DNA from: an uncultured Verrucomicrobia subdivision 3 bacterium
GTDB taxonomy: Bacteria; Verrucomicrobiota; Verrucomicrobiia; Limisphaerales; UBA11358
Direction: 5' to 3'
DNA: 64,000 bases
Assembly (NCBI GenBank): GCA_903922735.1
Contig: CAIXUZ010000049.1
Coordinates: forward strand, 19,439-83,438
A program made the position numbers and the translations under genes. Below, piece by piece: positions 533-62,559 of this stretch; within the stretch, counting starts at the first letter, position 1; every line of letters begins with the position of its first letter. A model generated the notes under the pieces. That model did no database searches and was not told where the DNA came from. It saw only the letters and a list, made by a program, of their open reading frames with translations.

Positions 533-3502
533 TCAACCGATCAGGCTCTTCGCCTTGGCCAGCGCTTCATCCAATTTGCCCGCGTCCTTGCCACCGCCGC
601 GCGCGTTGTCCGGCTTGCCGCCGCCTTTGCCGCCGACGATTGGCGCAATCTGCTGGATGATTTTCCCTGCCTGAACTTTCGCGGTGAATTCCGGCGAGAC
701 GTTTGCAATGAGCGTCACGCTGCCGTTCGCTGCGCCACCGACGACGATGACGCCTTTGAATCGGCCTTTCACCGCGTCCACGATGGCTTGTAAATATTCG
801 CCGTCGGCGTCGGGGAACGCTTGCGTGATGAGCGGGATGCCGTTTACTTCCGTCGTGCGCGTGAGCAACCAACTCGCGGTCTGCGCAGCGTTGCGCTGGA
901 TTGCCGACTTGAGCAACTTTTCCAATTCTTTTTGGTGCGCGAGCAAGGCTTCAACTTTCTTTTCCAGTTCCCCAACGGGCGAATTGATTTTGCCGGCGAT
1001 GCTGCGGATGAGTTGCAACTGCTCGTTCGCCAAGCCGTAAGCGGTCAATCCCGCGACCGCTTCGATGCGCCGAACACCGGCAGCCACAGCGGCTTCACTG
1101 ACGATGCGGAACAAACCAATCTCGCCGGTCGCCCGCGTATGCGTACCGCCGCATAGTTCCATCGAATAGCCATCCAGTTTGCCGGCGCCGCCACCGATTT
1201 GGACGACGCGGACGGTGTCGCCGTATTTGTCGCCGAAGAATTGCATCACGTCCTTGCGCGATTTCACGTCGGCGTGCGCGACTTCCGCCCACGAGACGCC
1301 CGCGTTTTCGAGGATGCGTTCGTTGACGAGCTTTTCAATATCAGCGACCTGCCGGGGTGTGAGCGGCGCACTGTTGAAGTCGAAGGTCAATTTGTCCGGC
1401 CCGACGAAGGAACCTTTCTGCGAAGCCTCCTTGCTAGCGACTTCGTGCAAGGCCCAGTGCAGCAAATGTGTGACGGTGTGGTGGCGTTGGATCGCGTTGC
1501 GCCGAGACAAATCAACTGAAAGTGAAACGGTGCTGCCGACGACCGGCGCAGTTTCAAGTTTCAAGTTTTCAGTTTCAAGGAAATGCAAGAACGTGTTGCC
1601 GCTCTTCTGCGTGTTGGAAATCCGCCACAATTTTCCGCTGCCGGTCAACTCGCCGGTGTCGCCGACCTGTCCGCCCATCTCGGCGTAGCACGCGCTGGTG
1701 TCGAGGATGACGGCGGTTTTGTCCTTCAAAGAGACGACTTCGAGAACTTTGGCCGGCACGGCCAGTGCCTCGTAGCCGACGAACTTCGTGGGCGTGGTGG
1801 TCTCGATTTGCGAGAGGGAAATGACTTCCTTCTTCTGCGCGGCGCGGGCGCGGGCGCGCTGCTCTTCCATCAACCAATCAAATTCGGCCTTATCCACACT
1901 GAACCCATGCTCACGCGCCATCAACTCTGTCAAATCGAGCGGAAACCCATACGTGTCGTAAAGAGTGAAAGCAAAACTGCCAAGAAATTCCACCGGCTTT
2001 TTTGGTGGTGAAGGAATGCCATTAACCAAGACTGGATTTTCTTTTCCCTGTTTCACAGCCGACATCATTCCATCGAACCGCTCAATTCCGTTGTCCAACG
2101 TCTTGTTAAACGCCTCTTCCTCGCGCTGGATGGTTTCCTGCACCTGCTTCTTGCGGGCACGGATTTCGGGGAAGACGTCGCCCATCGTGTCGGCGAGGAC
2201 GTCCACGAGTTTGTAGAAGAACGGTTCCTTGAATCCGAGGGTGCGTCCGTAGCGCACGGCGCGGCGCAGGATGCGGCGCAATACGTAGTTCCGGTCCGTG
2301 TTCCCGGGCTGGATGCCGTCGGCAATGGCAAAACTGAGGGTGCGGATATGGTCGGCGATGACGCGAAAAGCGATGTCCTCGGCAATTTGGGCGGCATTAT
2401 CGGCGCGACCGGCAGGGTTATCGGTTGAGCCGATAGGCTTATCGGTCGAACCGGCACGGTTATCGGCGGAACCGATAGCCCTATCGGCTGAACCGACAGA
2501 CGTGCCGGAACCGGCGACAGGCTTATCGGCGGAACCGGCAGGCTTACCGGTTGAACCGGTCGCCTTATCGGTCGAGCCGATAGGGTTGTCGGCTGTTCCG
2601 ATAATGCGATTGGCGTCGCCGGGCAGCGTGCTTTTATAGGTTTTCCCGCTCATTTTCTCCAAAGCGTCAAAAATGGGGCGGAAAATGTCGGTTTCGTAGT
2701 TGGAAATCTTGGCGTGGGCAAAATCCGTCAGGTTTTTAGTGCCTTGGATGATGCTGGTGACGCGCTCGAAACCCATGCCGGTGTCCACCGCTTTTGCCGG
2801 CAGCGGCGAAAAGGTGCCATCCGGATTGGCGTTGAACTGCATGAAGACGAGGTTCCAGATTTCAATGCAGCGGGCGTCGCCTTTGTTCACCAGACTGCCT
2901 TTGGTATCGCCGGCGGGCGTCAAATCCACATGGAGTTCGGAGCAGGGGCCGCACGGGCCGGTTTCGCCCATCATCCAGAAATTATCTTTCTTGTTGCCGT
3001 TGACGATGTGGACGGCGGGGTCGAGGCCGACGGAACGGAATTTCTCGGCCCAGAAGTTCCACGCTTCCTGATCGAATTCGCTGGGGTCGTTTTTGGATTT
3101 GTCCGGATTGTAAACGGTGGCGTAAAGGCGTTGCGGCGGGAACTTCCAGATGTTCACGACCAACTCCCACGCCCATTCGATGGCTTCCTGCTTGAAATAG
3201 TCGCCGAAGGACCAGTTGCCGAGCATCTCAAAGAACGTGTGGTGATAGGTGTCGAGGCCGACGTCGTCAAGGTCGTTGTGCTTGCCGCCGGCGCGAATGC
3301 ATTTCTGGGTGTCGGCGGCGCGACCGGGTGTGTAAGGACATTGGCTCTGGCCGAGGAAGATGGGCACGAACTGGTTCATGCCGGCGTTGGTGAACAGCAG
3401 GTTCGGGCTGTCCGGCATCAGGCTGGACGAGGGAACGATGGTGTGCTGCTTCGATTTGAAAAAATCGAGGAACGATTGGCGGATTTGCGTGCTGGTCATC
3501 AT
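533..3502 (-). CDS. alaS: Alanine--tRNA ligase
   Basis: MTSTQIRQSFLDFFKSKQHTIVPSSSLMP, WNLVFMQFN, VTHLLHWALHEV, CGGTHTRATGEIGLFRIVSE; full-length AlaRS. Likely start at 3502/3499 rather than the ORF start at 3607. Confidence 0.97.
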   Translation of the reverse strand: MMTSTQIRQSFLDFFKSKQHTIVPSSSLMPDSPNLLFTNAGMNQFVPIFLGQSQCPYTPGRAADTQKCIRAGGKHNDLDDVGLDTYHHTFFEMLGNWSFGDYFKQEAIEWAWELVVNIWKFPPQRLYATVYNPDKSKNDPSEFDQEAWNFWAEKFRSVGLDPAVHIVNGNKKDNFWMMGETGPCGPCSELHVDLTPAGDTKGSLVNKGDARCIEIWNLVFMQFNANPDGTFSPLPAKAVDTGMGFERVTSIIQGTKNLTDFAHAKISNYETDIFRPIFDALEKMSGKTYKSTLPGDANRIIGTADNPIGSTDKATGSTGKPAGSADKPVAGSGTSVGSADRAIGSADNRAGSTDKPIGSTDNPAGRADNAAQIAEDIAFRVIADHIRTLSFAIADGIQPGNTDRNYVLRRILRRAVRYGRTLGFKEPFFYKLVDVLADTMGDVFPEIRARKKQVQETIQREEEAFNKTLDNGIERFDGMMSAVKQGKENPVLVNGIPSPPKKPVEFLGSFAFTLYDTYGFPLDLTELMAREHGFSVDKAEFDWLMEEQRARARAAQKKEVISLSQIETTTPTKFVGYEALAVPAKVLEVVSLKDKTAVILDTSACYAEMGGQVGDTGELTGSGKLWRISNTQKSGNTFLHFLETENLKLETAPVVGSTVSLSVDLSRRNAIQRHHTVTHLLHWALHEVASKEASQKGSFVGPDKLTFDFNSAPLTPRQVADIEKLVNERILENAGVSWAEVAHADVKSRKDVMQFFGDKYGDTVRVVQIGGGAGKLDGYSMELCGGTHTRATGEIGLFRIVSEAAVAAGVRRIEAVAGLTAYGLANEQLQLIRSIAGKINSPVGELEKKVEALLAHQKELEKLLKSAIQRNAAQTASWLLTRTTEVNGIPLITQAFPDADGEYLQAIVDAVKGRFKGVIVVGGAANGSVTLIANVSPEFTAKVQAGKIIQQIAPIVGGKGGGKPDNARGGGKDAGKLDEALAKAKSLIG
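1551..1580. repeat. Heptanucleotide repeat (GTTTCAA)n inside alaS
   Basis: GTTTCAA GTTTCAA GTTTTCA GTTTCAA GG; encodes LETENLKLE on the minus strand. Confidence 0.85.
2397..2606. repeat. 21-bp tandem repeat array (about 10 units) inside alaS, consensus TTATCGGTCGAACCGATAGGC
   Basis: Consecutive phased 21-mers, e.g. TTATCGGTTGAGCCGATAGGC, TTATCGGTCGAACCGGCACGG, TTATCGGCGGAACCGATAGCC, TTATCGGCGGAACCGGCAGGC, TTATCGGTCGAGCCGATAGGG; each has near dyad symmetry TATCGG...CCGATA. Confidence 0.95.
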
Positions 3503-3619
3503 GCGAAATTGAGCGTTGAGCCTAGCGCAAGGAGAGCAGACAGGCGAGTGGAAGTTTTGCATTGAGCCGGTTGCAAAACGGCGGCGATGGACGCATAATC
3601 TGACCACCTTGATATTTTC

Positions 3620-11152: not shown

Positions 11153-11412
11153 GATTGGTAGCAATTTTTTTGAGACTAAACCGCTTCACTCTAAGTGTCA
11201 ATGCCGTTTCTATTTTCTTAAAAACCGGCCGACCATGAAATTTTCAACGCGATCAGATAGCACAACCATTAGGAGTACTCCAACACAAATTGCCTGCTTT
11301 CACACCATTTTCCGCCACCCGCGCCGGCCAATGCCGAATAGCGCTTTAAAAATCATCAATTCTTCTTTCCCCCGATTTTTATTTTTCCATATCATTGCTT
11401 TCTCGATTAACA

Positions 11413-12279
11413 ATGCATTTCACCCCGCAACTGCGCACGCTCCTCGTCCTTGGCCGCGTGGCAAATTTGCCGACGGCATGGTCAAACTGCCTGGCCGGCT
11501 GGTGGCTCGGCGGAGGGGGGAATTATTGGAAACTACCATTTTTACTTCTGGGCGTCAGTCTGCTGCACACCGGCGGAATGTTTTTAAATGATGCTTTTGA
11601 TGCCGACTCGGACCACCAGCGGCGTCCGGAACGGCCAATTCCATCAGGAAAAATTTCGATCCACCTCGCCTGGCGTCTTGGCTTCAGCCTTCTGGTCGCG
11701 GGCATATTCCTGTTGCTATTCTGTAGTCAGCTCTCGGCCGGTGCGGCAATTGTCCTCGCGCTGTGCATCCTGCTTTACAACTTCTCTCACAAATTTTTCA
11801 CTGCGGCGCCATGGTTGCTCGGCACCTGCCGCTTTTGGATTTACATCATCGCCGGAGCATCGGGTGCAACGGGCTTGAATGGTTGGCCAATCCTGTGCGG
11901 CCTGGCCATGGCACTCTATGTCGTAGGCTCAAACTTCGTTGTGCGACGCGAAAGCCATCGGGGTGCCATCCCCTTCTGGCCGCTGCTCCCGCTCGCGGTG
12001 CCAATCCTGCTGGCGGTCGCGATGAACACCGGCGGTTTCCGGCTCCGTGCCCTCGGGCTTGCCGCCGGTTTAATCGGGTGGACCGGCTGGTGCGTGCGGA
12101 AGCTTTTCACCGGTGGTGCGGGCAGCGTTGCCATCATCGCCGCAAACCTCATGGCCGGTATTGTCTTCGTAGATTGGCTCGCCGTTGCGCCGCAATTATC
12201 ATTCTGGCCGGGCGCTGCCGTCTTCCTTTCGCTCTTCGGCTTGACGAAATGGCTGCAAAAAATCGCACCGGTAAGCTGA
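11413..12279 (+). CDS. UbiA family prenyltransferase
   Basis: GGMFLNDAFDADSDHQRRPERPIPSGKIS, the UbiA NDxxDxxxD-type motif, plus multiple TM helices. Confidence 0.85.
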   Translation: MHFTPQLRTLLVLGRVANLPTAWSNCLAGWWLGGGGNYWKLPFLLLGVSLLHTGGMFLNDAFDADSDHQRRPERPIPSGKISIHLAWRLGFSLLVAGIFLLLFCSQLSAGAAIVLALCILLYNFSHKFFTAAPWLLGTCRFWIYIIAGASGATGLNGWPILCGLAMALYVVGSNFVVRRESHRGAIPFWPLLPLAVPILLAVAMNTGGFRLRALGLAAGLIGWTGWCVRKLFTGGAGSVAIIAANLMAGIVFVDWLAVAPQLSFWPGAAVFLSLFGLTKWLQKIAPVS

Positions 12280-25434: not shown

Positions 25435-25890
25435 TCACGTCTCCGACATCACCCAGGCGGAGAACGGGCTCCACTGGCCGCCCACCCGGTAACGCATGGC
25501 CATCAGCGGAGCGACCCCGCCGTTACCGCCATGCTTCGTCCAAACTGTGCCGCCGTCCGTGCTGCCGGACAATACGGGGAGCAACGTGCAGTTGGACAAA
25601 TCCTGATTGGGGTCGATGCCGCTGCTGACGGTGACGACACATTGCCACGCCTCCGGCGCGGCGGACACCAGGCTTTTGTCGATGCTCCCATCGGCGGAGG
25701 AACTCAGGTCGCTGCTGATCTCCGGCACCGACAGCGGGAAATGCGCCTGCAAACCGGCGATCTGGATTTGCTGGTCCGCGACTTGGGTTTGGAGCGCATC
25801 GATGAGCGCTTTGAGGCCGTTGAACTGGTTGCGCAATTCCGCCGCCACGATGGGCGCATGATTCACGGGTAATGTCGGGTCGTATGGCAT
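25435..25890 (-). CDS. Hypothetical protein (coiled-coil N-terminus)
   Basis: MPYDPTLPVNHAPIVAAELRNQFNGLKALIDALQTQVADQQIQIAGLQ...; isolated open frame with convincing codon composition. Confidence 0.65.
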   Translation of the reverse strand: MPYDPTLPVNHAPIVAAELRNQFNGLKALIDALQTQVADQQIQIAGLQAHFPLSVPEISSDLSSSADGSIDKSLVSAAPEAWQCVVTVSSGIDPNQDLSNCTLLPVLSGSTDGGTVWTKHGGNGGVAPLMAMRYRVGGQWSPFSAWVMSET

Positions 25891-26037: not shown

Positions 26038-26667
26038 TCAGGGCACGATCTTCGTGGCCGGGTCGCTCCAGGCGCCATCATTCACCGGTTTCGGTGCCCG
26101 CGCTTTCACGCGGAACCACAGCTTCTGTCCGCTCGTCAGGTCCGTGAGGCTATACTTGCTGCCGCTGCACGAATCCACCAGCTTCCATTTGCTTGCATCG
26201 TTCGGGTCGGTGCTCATCTGCACCTGGTAATTCTTCGTGCCGCGCACCGGATCCCATTGCAAATCCAGCCGCCCCTCGGCGTCGCCCGCCGTGATGGAGA
26301 GATTCTGCACCTGCGCCAGCGGCCCGATGGGCGCGGCGGACGCCTTGACGCTCATGCCTGCACTTTCAATCTTCACCTTGTTGCCCTGGGTCACGTTGGA
26401 CACATAATCCCCCAGCGAGGTGACGAGTCCACTCAACGTCGTGATGGCCGCGTCGCGGTCATCCGTCGCCTGTTTGGCGGCTTGCGCCGCCGCTTTTTGC
26501 GCCGCCACTTTCGTCGTGGCCGTGGCCAAGGCCGTGCTGACTGAGGCCAGCGTCGGGTTCGGCGTGGTGAAATTCGCATTCCCCGTCATCGCCGTGATGA
26601 TCTGGTCGGTCAGCGACAGGATTTCATCCGGCGTCATGCCGCCGAGTCCTAATTTGACTTTTGCCAT
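26038..26667 (-). CDS. Helical N-domain + fibronectin type III protein (FN3 paralog 1)
   Basis: MAKVKLGLGGMTPDEILSLTDQIITAMTGNANFTTPNPTLASVSTALATATTKVA...IGPLAQVQNLSITAGDAEGRLDLQWDPVRGTKNYQVQMSTDPNDASKWKLVDSCSGSKYSLTDLTSGQKLWFRVKARA. SD-like GGAG before ATG at 26667; the frame extends in-frame to 26754. Confidence 0.85.
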   Translation of the reverse strand: MAKVKLGLGGMTPDEILSLTDQIITAMTGNANFTTPNPTLASVSTALATATTKVAAQKAAAQAAKQATDDRDAAITTLSGLVTSLGDYVSNVTQGNKVKIESAGMSVKASAAPIGPLAQVQNLSITAGDAEGRLDLQWDPVRGTKNYQVQMSTDPNDASKWKLVDSCSGSKYSLTDLTSGQKLWFRVKARAPKPVNDGAWSDPATKIVP

Positions 26668-26879
26668 TTTTTTTATCTCCAGTTGCGGCACGACCGGTTC
26701 ATCATAATTAACGGATCCGTCATAAACGGATGCACTGTCATCATAATCAGCCATATCATGCCTCGTTTATTTTTGTTGCTGCTCCCGCCCGCCGGCCGCC
26801 AGGCCGACCAAGCCGGAAGAACTGATGACGGTTTTACCACAAGCCGACCCGGCCCAAATACGATACTTTCCAAATCTTT

Positions 26880-57871: not shown

Positions 57872-57997
57872 TCTTACACCAGACCGAACGGACCGATCCG
57901 CGCGGAAACGGAATTGAATCTCAGATAGTCATCAACCTAGTCCCAGCTCCACCCACCGGCCGTGTTCCCTGACCGAATGCCTTGATTCCGTCACAAA

Positions 57998-58249
57998 ATA
58001 CCTTGGAAATGACCCAAAACGACACGGGAATGCCAAAAAGGAAGGTTCGGATACCAAAAAGGAAGGTTCCAAAATCAAAAAGGAAGGTTCGGATGCGGCA
58101 AAAGAACCTTCCGATGGAACAAAAGAAGGTTCCTAAATGAAAAAGGAAAGTTTGAATGCGACAAAAGAACCTTCCGAAATCAAAAAAGAACCTTCCGAAA
58201 TCAAAAAGGAAGGTTCCCAAACGACCAAGGAACCCGCATTCAATATCTA
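57998..58249. repeat. 21-bp tandem array 2 (about 12 units), core GGAAGGTTC or its complement GAACCTTCC plus an A-rich tail
   Basis: Phased 21-mers from 57998, e.g. GGAAGGTTCGGATACCAAAAA (58040), GGAAGGTTCCAAAATCAAAAA (58061), AGAACCTTCCGATGGAACAAA (58103), AGAACCTTCCGAAATCAAAAA (58166 and 58187), GGAAGGTTCCCAAACGACCAA (58208). Confidence 0.95.
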
Positions 58250-58524
58250 CGGTCAAAATCCCCTGCCCTGACCATCTCCGGCAGACAAAAATCGAACGCC
58301 TTTCACAACCCATTCAGAATGAATTAAATATACTGATGAGTATTTCTTGAAGATTAGCCGGACTATTGTATGATAAAAACCGTCAGACAGGCCTGAAGTT
58401 TGACCTTGCCTGAAACGGTAAACATCAAAGTAAATAAAAAATTATGGATGCTGTCTGGGGCTCCGGCCAAACGTGGGGTTCAAAAGGGTTGGCTTGGGGA
58501 TCAGGCACAAGAAAGGACCTCAAT

Positions 58525-59145
58525 ATGCCACTCATTCATGTTTCATTGGGCTTCATGGAATACAAGGACTACGAACTGGACGACTTTGCCACCAAAGTGG
58601 TCATCGACTGCACCGCCAATGCGGGCACCTTGGGCACTCTGCCAGTGTCGATGACGGTGTTGGACGGCGCGCAAAAGAGTTTCCACACCGCCCTTTCTCT
58701 GGTCAAAGGCGGCGGCACTGACACCACCGCGGATAAAACCGCCAAACGCCTCACCCTGCTGGGCCTCCTGCGCCAAAATGCGCTAGCCCTCCAAGCCAAA
58801 CCCGGTTTGACCGAAACCGACGTGAATTTGAGCGGCTACAAACCCGTCGTGTCCGGTTCCCATGCGCCCGTGGCCGTGAACGTGCCGGCCATCCTCGATG
58901 TCATCAACGTGGCCTCCACCAAGCTGGGCTTTAAGATCACGCCGGTGGCGGGCGCGGTTTTTTACGAATTTCAAGGCAAGGTGGGGAACAATCCGGCGCA
59001 ACTGCTGGGCACCGTCAAGAGCACCCGGAACATTGTCATGGAGAACCTGATATCCGGCACGACGTATGTCCTGCAAGTGCGCGCCGGTTATGGCGGCAAC
59101 CGCTTCAGCGAGTGGAGCGAGCCGGTCACCCACATGTGCACCTAG
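58525..59145 (+). CDS. Helical N-domain + fibronectin type III protein (FN3 paralog 2)
   Basis: MPLIHVSLGFMEYKDYELDDFATKVVIDCTANAGTLGTLPVSMTVLDGAQKSFHTALSLV...VPAILDVINVASTKLGFKITPVAGAVFYEFQGKVGNNPAQLLGTVKSTRNIVMENLISGTTYVLQVRAGYGGNRFSEWSEPV; same layout as 26038-26667. SD-like AAGGA before the ATG; frame extends in-frame to 58444. Confidence 0.82.
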   Translation: MPLIHVSLGFMEYKDYELDDFATKVVIDCTANAGTLGTLPVSMTVLDGAQKSFHTALSLVKGGGTDTTADKTAKRLTLLGLLRQNALALQAKPGLTETDVNLSGYKPVVSGSHAPVAVNVPAILDVINVASTKLGFKITPVAGAVFYEFQGKVGNNPAQLLGTVKSTRNIVMENLISGTTYVLQVRAGYGGNRFSEWSEPVTHMCT

Positions 59146-59154
59146 GGAGAATTT

Positions 59155-59232
59155 CCCCGCGAGATTCGTTTTAGGCAAGAGAGTTCCTTCTTTCCTCTCT
59201 TGCGGTTGCCGGGTCTCGCGGGGTTTTTATTT
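59155..59232 (+). terminator. Nested-stem terminator after FN3 paralog 2
   Basis: Outer CCCCGCGAGA/TCTCGCGGGG followed by TTTTTATTTT; inner GCAAGAGAG/CTCTCTTGC. Confidence 0.75.
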
Positions 59233-59509
59233 TCCCGCGCCAAGGAGACGGACTGAAGATCTTCAGGTTAGTTCGGCAACCGCCCTCATCCCGGCCTTCT
59301 TGTATCTGAATTTCCGTCTAACCTTGTCTGTGAGTAATGGCTCCCCCGGGGAGAAGGAGAAACGTTCACCGCGTCGGCGGACAACCTTGCGCTGGATTGG
59401 CCGGACCATCAACCGAACTCCAAAAAACTTGAATGGTGATCCCCTCTCCTTGGGGAGAGGGCCAGGGTGAGGGAGGACGTGAAAACAATGTTTGCCATCG
59501 CCCCGCCCA

Positions 59510-59577
59510 GCACCAGCGGCGCGGCATCTTTGTAGAACCAAGATTCCGTTTTGCCCAAGCTCCGTCAGGAGCGGCAT
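59510..59577. repeat. 68-bp dispersed repeat, copy 1
   Basis: gcaccagcggcgcggcatctttgtagaaccaagattccgttttgcccaagctccgtcaggagcggcat. Confidence 0.85.
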
Positions 59578-59782
59578 GATGAAAATAGCCCAGCCATTCA
59601 TGGCTGGGTGGTGAATCCCAAAGCAGATTGAGTCCCGCAAGGGACGGCAGAAATAGGGGTGGCCGTCCGCAAGGACCTTTCGTCCCTGACGGGACTTTTC
59701 ATCATCGGAAACCGGCAACCCAGCACTAAAGTGCTGGGCTATTTTCAAGGGACTGGCTGGAATGGATTTAAAATAAGCTCCA

Positions 59783-59850
59783 GCGCCAGCGGCGCGGCAT
59801 CTTTGTAGAACCAAGATTCCAATTTGGAAAAGCTCCGTCAGGAGCGGCAT
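59783..59850. repeat. 68-bp dispersed repeat, copy 2
   Basis: gcgccagcggcgcggcatctttgtagaaccaagattccaatttggaaaagctccgtcaggagcggcat; same length and largely identical to copy 1. Confidence 0.85.
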
Positions 59851-59961
59851 CAGATTATGTCGCTCCTACGGAGCTAAAATTATCGGGACATTGAGCCTAC
59901 CAAGATTTCGCGCCTACGGCGCTGGGGTTGAGAACTGGTTCCGGGGTGATGGCAAAAGGTT

Positions 59962-60771
59962 TCAGGGGCTTTCCCAAAATCCCTGTTCCTTCAGATTCTT
60001 CTTCGCCGCCGCATGGGCTTCGGGCGTCTCGATAAGCAACAGGATCGATGGTTCGGGAAGATATTTGAACACGCTCGCGGAACGCCATTCCCCGGTTTGT
60101 TCATTCGGCCCGCTGGGAACCATGATGCTCCACAAATGGACTTTGGTAATATCAACAAATGCAGAGCTGACCGGGTCCATGTCCACACGAATCTTGTTCT
60201 GCGCCTTCAAATCCTCTGCCAGTTGCTTTAGTTTTTGGGGGATTTTGTAGGCCCGACATTCAAGCTGGCTGGGATTTCTGGACAAATGAATGGCATCAGG
60301 CTTCTCATCATAGTCCATTCCCACAGTTTCGGACAGGAACATAAACTCGCAGCTCAATGAATGGCGCGCCATGAATTTTCCCGTGTAGGGAAAGGTTTCA
60401 AATCCACTCGCGCCTTTTTTGAGCCAGTTGGTATCATCCTGACGGTAATTGGCGATCAAGACATTCATCACGTCCTTGAACGGCGAGTCCGGTGGCAGGG
60501 CAACAATTTTTACCGGGGTCGTGTCCAGATACACCGCTTGCGTCACGGAACCATTGCTGACCTTGGCAACCAGTGCGTTGACTTTGGCAACCACCTCGCT
60601 GACTGTCGCGTTGGAAAAAACTTGTTCAGGCAAAATACAGGAGTCCCAACGATAAGGACGTTGATGCGAAACGTGCGTGGCCGAGATCCGGGTGAAAAAC
60701 GTAAAAAGGACTGATAGCAGAAAAATCATTCCAGCAATCGAGGCAAGAATGATTTTTGTTCTGCGTTTCAT
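59962..60771 (-). CDS. Hypothetical membrane-anchored protein
   Basis: MKRRTKIILASIAGMIFLLSVLFTFFTRI N-terminal TM, then 240 aa soluble region; SD-like context. Confidence 0.75.
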   Translation of the reverse strand: MKRRTKIILASIAGMIFLLSVLFTFFTRISATHVSHQRPYRWDSCILPEQVFSNATVSEVVAKVNALVAKVSNGSVTQAVYLDTTPVKIVALPPDSPFKDVMNVLIANYRQDDTNWLKKGASGFETFPYTGKFMARHSLSCEFMFLSETVGMDYDEKPDAIHLSRNPSQLECRAYKIPQKLKQLAEDLKAQNKIRVDMDPVSSAFVDITKVHLWSIMVPSGPNEQTGEWRSASVFKYLPEPSILLLIETPEAHAAAKKNLKEQGFWESP

Positions 60772-60783
60772 GACAAAGAAAAT

Positions 60784-62559
60784 TTATTTTTCAACCACTT
60801 CCGGCTCCACCCATTTGCCATGTTCCTTGATGAGGTCCACGAGCCGTTCCACGGCTTCGGCTTCGGGGATGTTGAACTTGATGGCCTGCTTGCCGACGTA
60901 GAGGTTGATCTTGTTCGGGGCACCGCCCACGTAGCCAAAGTCCGCATCCGCCATCTCACCGGGGCCGTTTACAATGCAACCCATGATGGCGATCTTCACA
61001 CCCTTGAGATGTTCCGTCCGCGCCTTGATGCGCGCCGTGACGGTCTGGAGATTGAACAGCGTCCGGCCACAGCTCGGGCACGCCACGTAGTCCGTCTTGA
61101 AGGAACGGCAGCCCGCCGCCTGCAAAACATTGAACGCCAGCCGCAGGGAAAGCCCCGCGCCGCTCTCGCCGCGAATGAGAATCGCGTCGCCGATGCCATC
61201 CGCCAGCAGCGCGCCAATGACCACGCCCGCCTGCAACAAGGCGATGTTCGGCGCGAGCGGCACCGGTTCGAAATTGATGCAGTCTTTCAGCAGAATGGGG
61301 TTGTTGCGCCCCAGCCGCTTGAGCTTCGCCGCCAGCAGTCGGAAGGCCGTGATGGCCGGTAATTTCACGCCGTCCTTCACGGTGACAAGCTGCGTGTCGC
61401 AGTTGATCTCAAAATCCTGCGTCGGGTCGATCTCGAAGACGTTCAAGTCCTCATAGACCGCCTCGGGCCGCACGTCGTCCTTCGGGCGGACCTTCGGCGC
61501 AACCTTGTCCCAGGTAGCCCGGGTGACGACGACGCGGATGAGCTGTTCGCCACCGCACTTGATGTTGTCATTGAGCGGAATCTCGGGCGTCTCGCGCTTC
61601 TCAAAATGGAAGGGGTCAAAGGGAAATTCGGAGTTCGGCAGGCGGAACACGGAATTGGACAGCTTGGGAATCAAGGACAACAGATCGCGGCACACCGGAA
61701 TCTCGTGCGGTGAATCTTCCGTGAGCGAAACGCGAATCGTGTCGCCCAACCCGTCGCAGAGCAACGAACCGATGCCAATAGCTGACTTGATGCGACCGTC
61801 TTCACCCTCACCGGCCTCGGTGACGCCGAGGTGGATGGGATAATTCCAATCCGCGCCCAGTTCATTCAGTCGCGCCACGAGCAGGCGGTAGCATTCGATC
61901 ATCACCTTCGGGTTGCTCGACTTCATGGAAAACTTGAAGTTGTGGAAGTCGTGCTTGCGGCAGATGTGGGCAAACTCCAGCGCGCTCTCGATCATGCCCA
62001 GCGGCGAATCGCCAAAACGGTTCATGATGCGGTCAGACAGCGAGCCGTGGTTGGTGCCGATGCGGATGGCGCGCTTGAGCCGCTTGCATTCCAGCACGAG
62101 CGGCGTGAACTTCTCCTCGATGCGCGTCAGCTCCTCGGCATATTGCGCGTCGGAGTATTCCTTGATGGCAAACTTCTTGGTGTCGGCGTAATTGCCGGGA
62201 TTCACCCGGATGACTTCCACCCACTTCACCGCTTCCATCGCGGCTTCGGGCTTGAAATGGATGTCCGCCACAATCGGCACCGTCACGCCATGCTGGCGCA
62301 GCCCGGCGACGATGTTCTGCAAATTGGCCGCATCTTTCACCGTCGGCGCCGTGATGCGCACGATCTGGCAGCCGACTTTGACGAGGTCCAGCGTCTGCTG
62401 CACGCTGGCGGCGGTGTCCATCGTGTCGCAGGTGATCATGGACTGCACAACGACGGGATGATCGCCACCGATGATGACGCCGCCCTGCGCCGGATCGCCA
62501 ATGACGATCTCGCGCGTTTTACGACGTTGGAAAAAATACGGAGATTCGCAGTAACGCAT
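60784..62559 (-). CDS. ispG: 4-hydroxy-3-methylbut-2-en-1-yl diphosphate synthase, long form
   Basis: MRYCESPYFFQRRKTREIVIGDPAQGGVIIGGDHPVVVQSMITCDTMDTAASVQQTLDLV; HLGVTEAGEGEDGRIKSAIGIGSLL; CPSCGRTLFNLQ; MGCIVNGPGEMADADFGYVGG. Confidence 0.95.
   Translation of the reverse strand: MRYCESPYFFQRRKTREIVIGDPAQGGVIIGGDHPVVVQSMITCDTMDTAASVQQTLDLVKVGCQIVRITAPTVKDAANLQNIVAGLRQHGVTVPIVADIHFKPEAAMEAVKWVEVIRVNPGNYADTKKFAIKEYSDAQYAEELTRIEEKFTPLVLECKRLKRAIRIGTNHGSLSDRIMNRFGDSPLGMIESALEFAHICRKHDFHNFKFSMKSSNPKVMIECYRLLVARLNELGADWNYPIHLGVTEAGEGEDGRIKSAIGIGSLLCDGLGDTIRVSLTEDSPHEIPVCRDLLSLIPKLSNSVFRLPNSEFPFDPFHFEKRETPEIPLNDNIKCGGEQLIRVVVTRATWDKVAPKVRPKDDVRPEAVYEDLNVFEIDPTQDFEINCDTQLVTVKDGVKLPAITAFRLLAAKLKRLGRNNPILLKDCINFEPVPLAPNIALLQAGVVIGALLADGIGDAILIRGESGAGLSLRLAFNVLQAAGCRSFKTDYVACPSCGRTLFNLQTVTARIKARTEHLKGVKIAIMGCIVNGPGEMADADFGYVGGAPNKINLYVGKQAIKFNIPEAEAVERLVDLIKEHGKWVEPEVVEK
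61624..61658. repeat. Heptamer repeat in ispG (AAATTCG GAGTTCG GCAGGCG GAACACG GAATTGG)
   Basis: Direct reading; encodes SNSVFRLPNSEF on the minus strand. Confidence 0.75.

Follow-up and report, generated by a model that had tools for sequence, protein, structure and literature searches.

What keeps a row of short DNA units in strict 21-bp register while the core of each unit appears to flip from one strand to the other? The row that raises this question, array 2, lies at positions 57986-58256 (core 58037-58234) of the window, by which we mean the whole stretch of 64,000 nucleotides analysed here. The window belongs to a 4.48-Mb metagenome-assembled genome in 82 contigs, whose alaS-based relatives are Verrucomicrobiota of subdivision 3 / Limisphaerales. 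An initial annotation described phased units with flipped 9-nt cores, and offered core inversion, a symmetric protein target and intrinsic curvature as their possible meaning; its main miss is the association of the array with the FN3-type gene that lies downstream. With moderate confidence, we read array 2 as one of the two parts of an accessory locus, the part that acts in cis, and it would be a helically phased, multi-site cis-regulatory array.

Period and symmetry of array 2

Array 2 is made of 21-bp units, of which about 10 are clear and 3-4 decayed, with decay increasing toward either end. Lag-21 identity rose as high as 0.75 over 63 bp and the TRF score as high as 219, which bears out the strict tandem period first described. 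When lags 6 to 69 were scanned across the whole 64-kb window, lags 21, 42 and 63 alone gave more than 0.54 identity over 84 bp. The constant part of the unit reads AAA-RGAA-SS-TTCC and contains a 10-bp hyphenated palindrome, GGAA-NN-TTCC, with a fixed dyad axis in the middle of GGAANNTTCC; the dyad symmetry was significant when compared with column-permuted arrays (p=0.003). The unit at 58142, GGAAAGTTTG, is degenerate, and no second copy of the array 2 sequence was detected in its own genome. Several reading frames of the array are interrupted by stops.

The 9-nt core, GGAAGGTTC, was present on the plus strand at 58040, 58061, 58082 and 58208, exactly as first noted, and its complement at 58104, 58167 and 58188, each one base beyond the positions originally given (58103, 58166 and 58187). 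The window contained 8 matches to this core where 0.5 were expected, and 0 of 100 shuffles reached as many. The complementary 9-mers are therefore shifted by one base relative to the phase of the direct copies, contrary to the claim that the cores always keep the same phase, and what stays in phase is the dyad axis of RGAA-SS-TTCC. The two unit forms, GGAAGGTTCC and AGAACCTTCC, share this one axis and differ at three positions (the first base and the central GG, which becomes CC), so the view that point mutation does not easily convert one form into the other was overstated. In array 2, the central dinucleotide (GG or CC), often with one outer base, accounts for the difference between the "orientations". 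Flipped cores would be tolerated by a symmetric site, for which central GG and central CC are the same site viewed from either strand.

The FN3-family gene, its locus and its relatives

The gene downstream of array 2 (58444-59145, plus strand) encodes a protein with three predicted helices (residues 15-35, 40-61 and 68-90, in a structure model of low confidence, pLDDT 55) followed by an FN3 domain that matches solved FN3 domains; no signal peptide was apparent. The body of the protein likely starts at the ATG at 58525, and the stretch before it (58444-58524, plus strand) encodes a leader rich in W, G, S and N (MDAVWGSGQTWGSKGLAWGSG...). A leader of this type precedes the protein body in many members of the family, either fused to it or as an overlapping short ORF. 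Between array and gene there is a sigma70-like promoter, TTGAAG-N16-TATGAT (58347-58374, plus strand), which is a weak consensus match only, and since 2 sigma70-like sites were found in this region with 0.8 expected, a single site of this kind exceeds chance by little. The gene is followed by a strong hairpin and a T run that resemble a rho-independent terminator (59155-59223, plus strand; -41.7 kcal/mol, z -7.7).

Array 2 and the FN3 gene share an accessory segment (57972-60790) with further sequence that includes a 269-aa minus-strand ORF, and the segment is flanked by an imperfect direct repeat of about 40 bp from the end of ispG. The left copy (57932-57971, plus strand) resembles the ispG 3' end, and the right copy (60791-60830, plus strand) lies within the ispG 3' end itself. 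At the orthologous site of two relatives, G003 and G013, array and FN3 gene were both absent, and the gap between the kinase gene and ispG measured about 210 bp in G003 and about 60 bp in G013.

We built a family profile from 12 members, found further members by their protein alone, and retrieved the flanks of the loci irrespective of arrays. The genomes are mostly draft MAGs, with several loci cut by contig ends, some of them inside arrays, and with uncertain start codons. An array with a period of about 21 bp lay at most 800 bp upstream of the gene at 50 of 68 loci, compared with 2 of 68 downstream (Fisher p 4e-19, about 0.7 being expected from the background density), the loci being drawn from a few dozen genomes and hence not independent. 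The control lags 18, 19, 20, 22, 23 and 24 were each found upstream at 0-2 of these 68 loci. Once period variants of 20, 22 and 40-44 bp were allowed, an array was present at 71 of 82 usable loci, and when lags from 15 to 59 were compared over the 82 loci, only 21 and 42 were common (61 loci each), followed by 41 (7) and 22 (5). The variant periods of homologous arrays (20, 22, 41 and 44) correspond closely to whole helical turns, and none is divisible by three; those of 20, 22 and 41 indicate that the period follows helical turns rather than codons and, together with the stops in several frames of array 2, led us to reject a heptapeptide coding repeat.

All six full-length family members of the array 2 genome have an upstream array, and genomes carry up to about 20 copies of the gene-plus-array module. 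Few genomes in the rest of the phylum (5 of 295, the present one included) or in Bacteroidota (5 of 399) gave matches to the family, and the arrays of these members are at the same place, two of the six Bacteroidota loci being weak. Across loci, the FN3-family gene is the only constant neighbour of the arrays. Pfam and PDB matched the protein to FN3 only, and PHROGs gave weak matches to FN3-containing tail families; there was no NCBIfam match, and no recognisable DNA-binding domain appeared in any of the four. The protein is near neutral in charge, and our searches of viral, phage and plasmid collections found no relatives.

The window contains a second FN3-family gene (26038-26754, minus strand), a paralogue of 238 aa, with array 1 upstream of it (locus L186; 26937-27217, about 170 bp from the gene; unit TTCCCAAGACTGGGAAAYGAC; dyad symmetry p=0.013). 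The segment around array 1 is largely missing from G003. Downstream of this gene is one for a coiled-coil-containing protein of 151 aa (25435-25890, minus strand). Homologues of this short protein (MxxDPTxPxxxxPxxxxxLRxQFNGLKxL) are encoded after the FN3 gene at about 14 loci, L184, L187 and L201 among them.

Strict 21-bp periodicity was also seen elsewhere in the same genome, with different unit sequences, and in sampled stretches of this genome and of relatives in the same genus, tandem periods of 21 (and 42) were conspicuous. In the window, an in-frame 21-bp array interrupts alaS (533-3607, minus strand) at 2369-2621, in the loop that follows STLPG (p=0.002), away from any FN3 gene. In this lineage, the same loop of alanyl-tRNA synthetase is a hot spot for insertions (the window, L034, L059/L085 and L165): at least four genomes carry unrelated in-frame 21-bp arrays there, and others have REP-like stretches or an in-frame RAYT-like (Y1 transposase) domain. 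The tail of a DEAD-box helicase-like ORF (L015, 9717-11678) contains another in-frame 21-bp array (11193-11424). Among arrays of this period without an FN3 gene, which occur in alaS and at a few other sites, several were not significantly symmetric. A perfect 21-bp array (ACATCGATGTTCCCGCGAATT) is cut off by the contig end at the right of L006 and L007 (contigs C5 and C6 of the same assembly) and at the left of L187 (C41), indicating that these arrays break the draft assembly.

Symmetry, turnover and promoters of the homologous arrays

Dyad symmetry was scored in 58 homologous arrays against column-permuted versions of each, and 40 were symmetric at p<0.05 (Fisher combined p 1e-55). Palindromic columns were also better conserved, with 19% mismatch compared with 28.5% in other columns, and many homologous units are unhyphenated palindromes. 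Interior units showed neither compensatory covariation (1067 observed, 1062 expected, z 0.28) nor a bias between G.T and A.C (105 to 96), suggesting that the symmetry belongs to sites in duplex DNA and not to RNA stems; a covariation signal (z 3.6) obtained when decayed edge units were included was gone for the interior units. The symmetric protein target proposed for array 2 thus gains support at the level of the whole family.

The median array has 13 units, and the median unit has 8 conserved and 3 hypervariable columns, which are interleaved. Blocks of 42 bp are frequent, and unit identity by fifths of the array was 55%, 78%, 79%, 75% and 55%, so that homologous arrays decay at both ends. 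Unit similarity tracked protein identity, averaging 0.69 for proteins at least 80% identical and about 0.3 below 50%. Accordingly, unit sequences are private to each gene and common to close homologues only (the array of locus L221, for instance, has the unit AACCAGCTGGTT), and some related proteins, 63-64% identical, carry unrelated units, the motif having been replaced. The loci compared thus conserve the geometry while the sequence turns over. Because each gene has a motif of its own, the putative binder would either be encoded by the locus or respond to geometry instead of sequence.

Sigma54-like (-24/-12) sites were located between array and gene at many loci, most often 50-150 bp ahead of the gene, and they favored the gene strand (30, compared with 5 on the other strand), with a mean score z of 1.45 against 0.01. 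The rpoN gene was present in all six genomes tested. No convincing sigma54 site was found at the six loci of the array 2 genome, that of array 2 included, and sigma70 promoters were slightly enriched in the gap between array and gene. We rejected the idea of one dedicated sigma54 activator per FN3 gene, because the counts do not fit: G018 has about 7 strong activator matches for about 21 FN3 genes and G000 has 3 for its 6, and several activators occur in G003 and G001, which have zero FN3 genes.

These comparisons bear on three other readings of array 2. That the array is transcribed and functions as RNA, whether as a hairpin array, a small RNA or a leader, is favored by the better-than-shuffled folding of array 2 RNA (z -5.9), which comes from pairing between units of opposite orientation. 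Against this, homologous arrays lack within-unit covariation and G.U strand bias, promoter sites sit between array and gene, the many unhyphenated palindromes would make poor hairpins, and no Rfam match was found. We rejected the hairpin array on the lack of covariation and strand bias in interior units, and consider an RNA role in general improbable. Intrinsically curved DNA, in which 21-bp-periodic sequence would bend in phase and form a curved upstream element, could account for conservation of the period alone. Array 2 is indeed predicted to be curved, as the initial annotation anticipated (8.3 deg/turn compared with 2.4 for base shuffles), and the arrays together gave 5.9 deg/turn against 2.4 for shuffles, slightly above column-permuted arrays (z 0.65, SE 0.16), all by an approximate wedge model. 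However, several homologous arrays are almost uncurved by the same prediction (0.7-3 deg/turn), an A4/T4 tract occurs in the consensus of only 26 of the 58, and curvature would leave the strongly conserved palindromes unexplained. Most 21-periodic DNA is predicted to be curved, and by this model curvature is not the conserved property; we regard it as a doubtful basis for the array, about on a par with RNA. Site-specific inversion of the 9-bp core would produce the complementary core seen in three of about ten units, but what distinguishes those units is a central dinucleotide that flips on a fixed axis, often with one outer base. Reverse-complement changes at mirror positions were only slightly in excess (84, compared with 70 expected, z 2.2, in some 50 arrays), and close homologous arrays hold one orientation, every listed pair with a unit similarity of at least 0.70 aligning one way. 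Inversion is accordingly the least credible of the readings considered.

Possible function of the module and its likeness to known systems

In the reading that we favor, array 2 would be a row of about 10-15 copies of a gene-specific symmetric site upstream of the FN3 gene promoter. Placed two helical turns apart (20-22 bp, mostly 21), all copies would be on the same face of the DNA, where a putative symmetric (dimeric) protein may bind them cooperatively, and this binding would control transcription of the FN3 gene, with the array as enhancer or operator. The array would grow and shrink by slippage of one- or two-unit blocks, with selection keeping spacing and symmetry.

The array could instead be a functionless minisatellite driven by slippage and travelling with the FN3 gene, its period and symmetry being mutational by-products (of duplication or hairpin-templated repair, for example). 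Homogenised units in mid-array, decay at both ends and the frequent 42-bp blocks are all consistent with this, and the arrays in alaS and elsewhere indicate that the array-forming process is not confined to the module, which keeps the neutral reading alive. However, in two phyla the arrays are consistently found ahead of the gene and not behind it, the period is retained while the sequence is replaced and symmetric columns are conserved, all of which argues against it, and the mirror covariation expected of hairpin-templated repair is absent; we judge it unlikely, though better placed than RNA or curvature. Slightly stronger, but still tentative, is the proposal that each array is bound by the product of its own FN3-family gene, probably by way of the helical N-terminal region, in the manner of iterons and Rep or of an autoregulated operator. 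No other gene is constant at all loci, the array sequence is inherited together with the protein, and private motifs require a private reader. Against this, the protein has no detectable DNA-binding fold and a near-neutral charge, no segment of it follows the motif better than the whole protein, and some similar proteins are found beside unrelated arrays.

Several known systems resemble the module in part. Plasmid iterons are direct repeats of about 19-22 bp beside a Rep gene, with a sequence that is specific to the replicon and inherited along with the protein, and the likeness extends to repeats of about two turns beside a co-inherited gene. The present module differs in being chromosomal, with many loci per genome, an FN3 neighbour and no Rep-family protein, Pfam and PDB giving FN3 only where a replication initiator would be expected. 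At sigma54 promoters, enhancer-binding proteins occupy two or three upstream activator sites; these systems share with the module palindromic, phased sites at enhancer distance and, in many homologues, a -24/-12-like site. The module differs from them in having 10-18 sites, a gene-private motif and too few activators, and the -24/-12 site was not seen at array 2. CRISPR arrays combine repeats of about 21-48 bp with unique spacers of about 20 bp or more and adjacent cas genes, and are alike in having short repeats with variable stretches; however, the whole 21-bp period of the module leaves no room for a spacer, and its conserved and variable columns are interleaved. No cas genes were found near array 2, and cas9 and cas1 adjoin only a handful of about 81 loci. 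A cas9-like gene (1073-1216 aa) with cas1 lies divergently beside an FN3 array in L272 (6000-12681), L273 (593-5147), L274 (1814-6347), L228, L241 and L195; L272 has a genuine CRISPR array beside cas9-cas1, and several 5' fragments of cas9 adjoin FN3 paralogues in one genome. Since so few loci are involved, we treated the link to the divergent cas9 gene as incidental.

Arrays of palindromic repeats also characterize REP/BIME elements with their RAYT genes, and RAYT-like genes and REP-like stretches do exist in this lineage, even fused into alaS. REPs, however, share one sequence genome-wide (PMC2817692, PMC3733652), whereas the array 2 sequence occurs once in its genome. Borg tandem repeats evolve rapidly and are both intergenic and in-frame in genes, but only 14-38% of their intergenic unit lengths are divisible by three, so that there is no fixed 21-bp period, no link to a single gene family is described and palindromes are unmentioned (PMC9879509). 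Instead of many unit lengths on Borg elements, we found a period fixed near 21 bp and imperfect units in a bacterial MAG.

Gene and array look like one unrecognised module, which recurs across many species in two phyla and has seemingly gone unremarked in the literature searched, where we found no published description (21-bp repeats in Verrucomicrobia; FN3 genes with upstream repeats). It is unusual for a regulatory element to keep its geometry, here two helical turns and dyad symmetry, while its sequence changes from one gene to the next. A more speculative possibility is that each locus is a self-contained private pair whose FN3 protein recognises its own palindromic array, phased at 21 bp, and builds a one-sided nucleoprotein filament. 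If so, up to about 20 mutually specific pairs might exist in one genome, with recognition codes that diverge together; the proteins would form a new class of DNA-binding proteins, and the pairs a modular genetic element of a new kind in at least two phyla. Either a privately matched DNA-binding protein, perhaps the FN3 protein, would read each array, or the cell would read the geometry of the array rather than its sequence, and both alternatives would matter for the understanding of DNA recognition and of what these uncharacterised FN3 proteins do.
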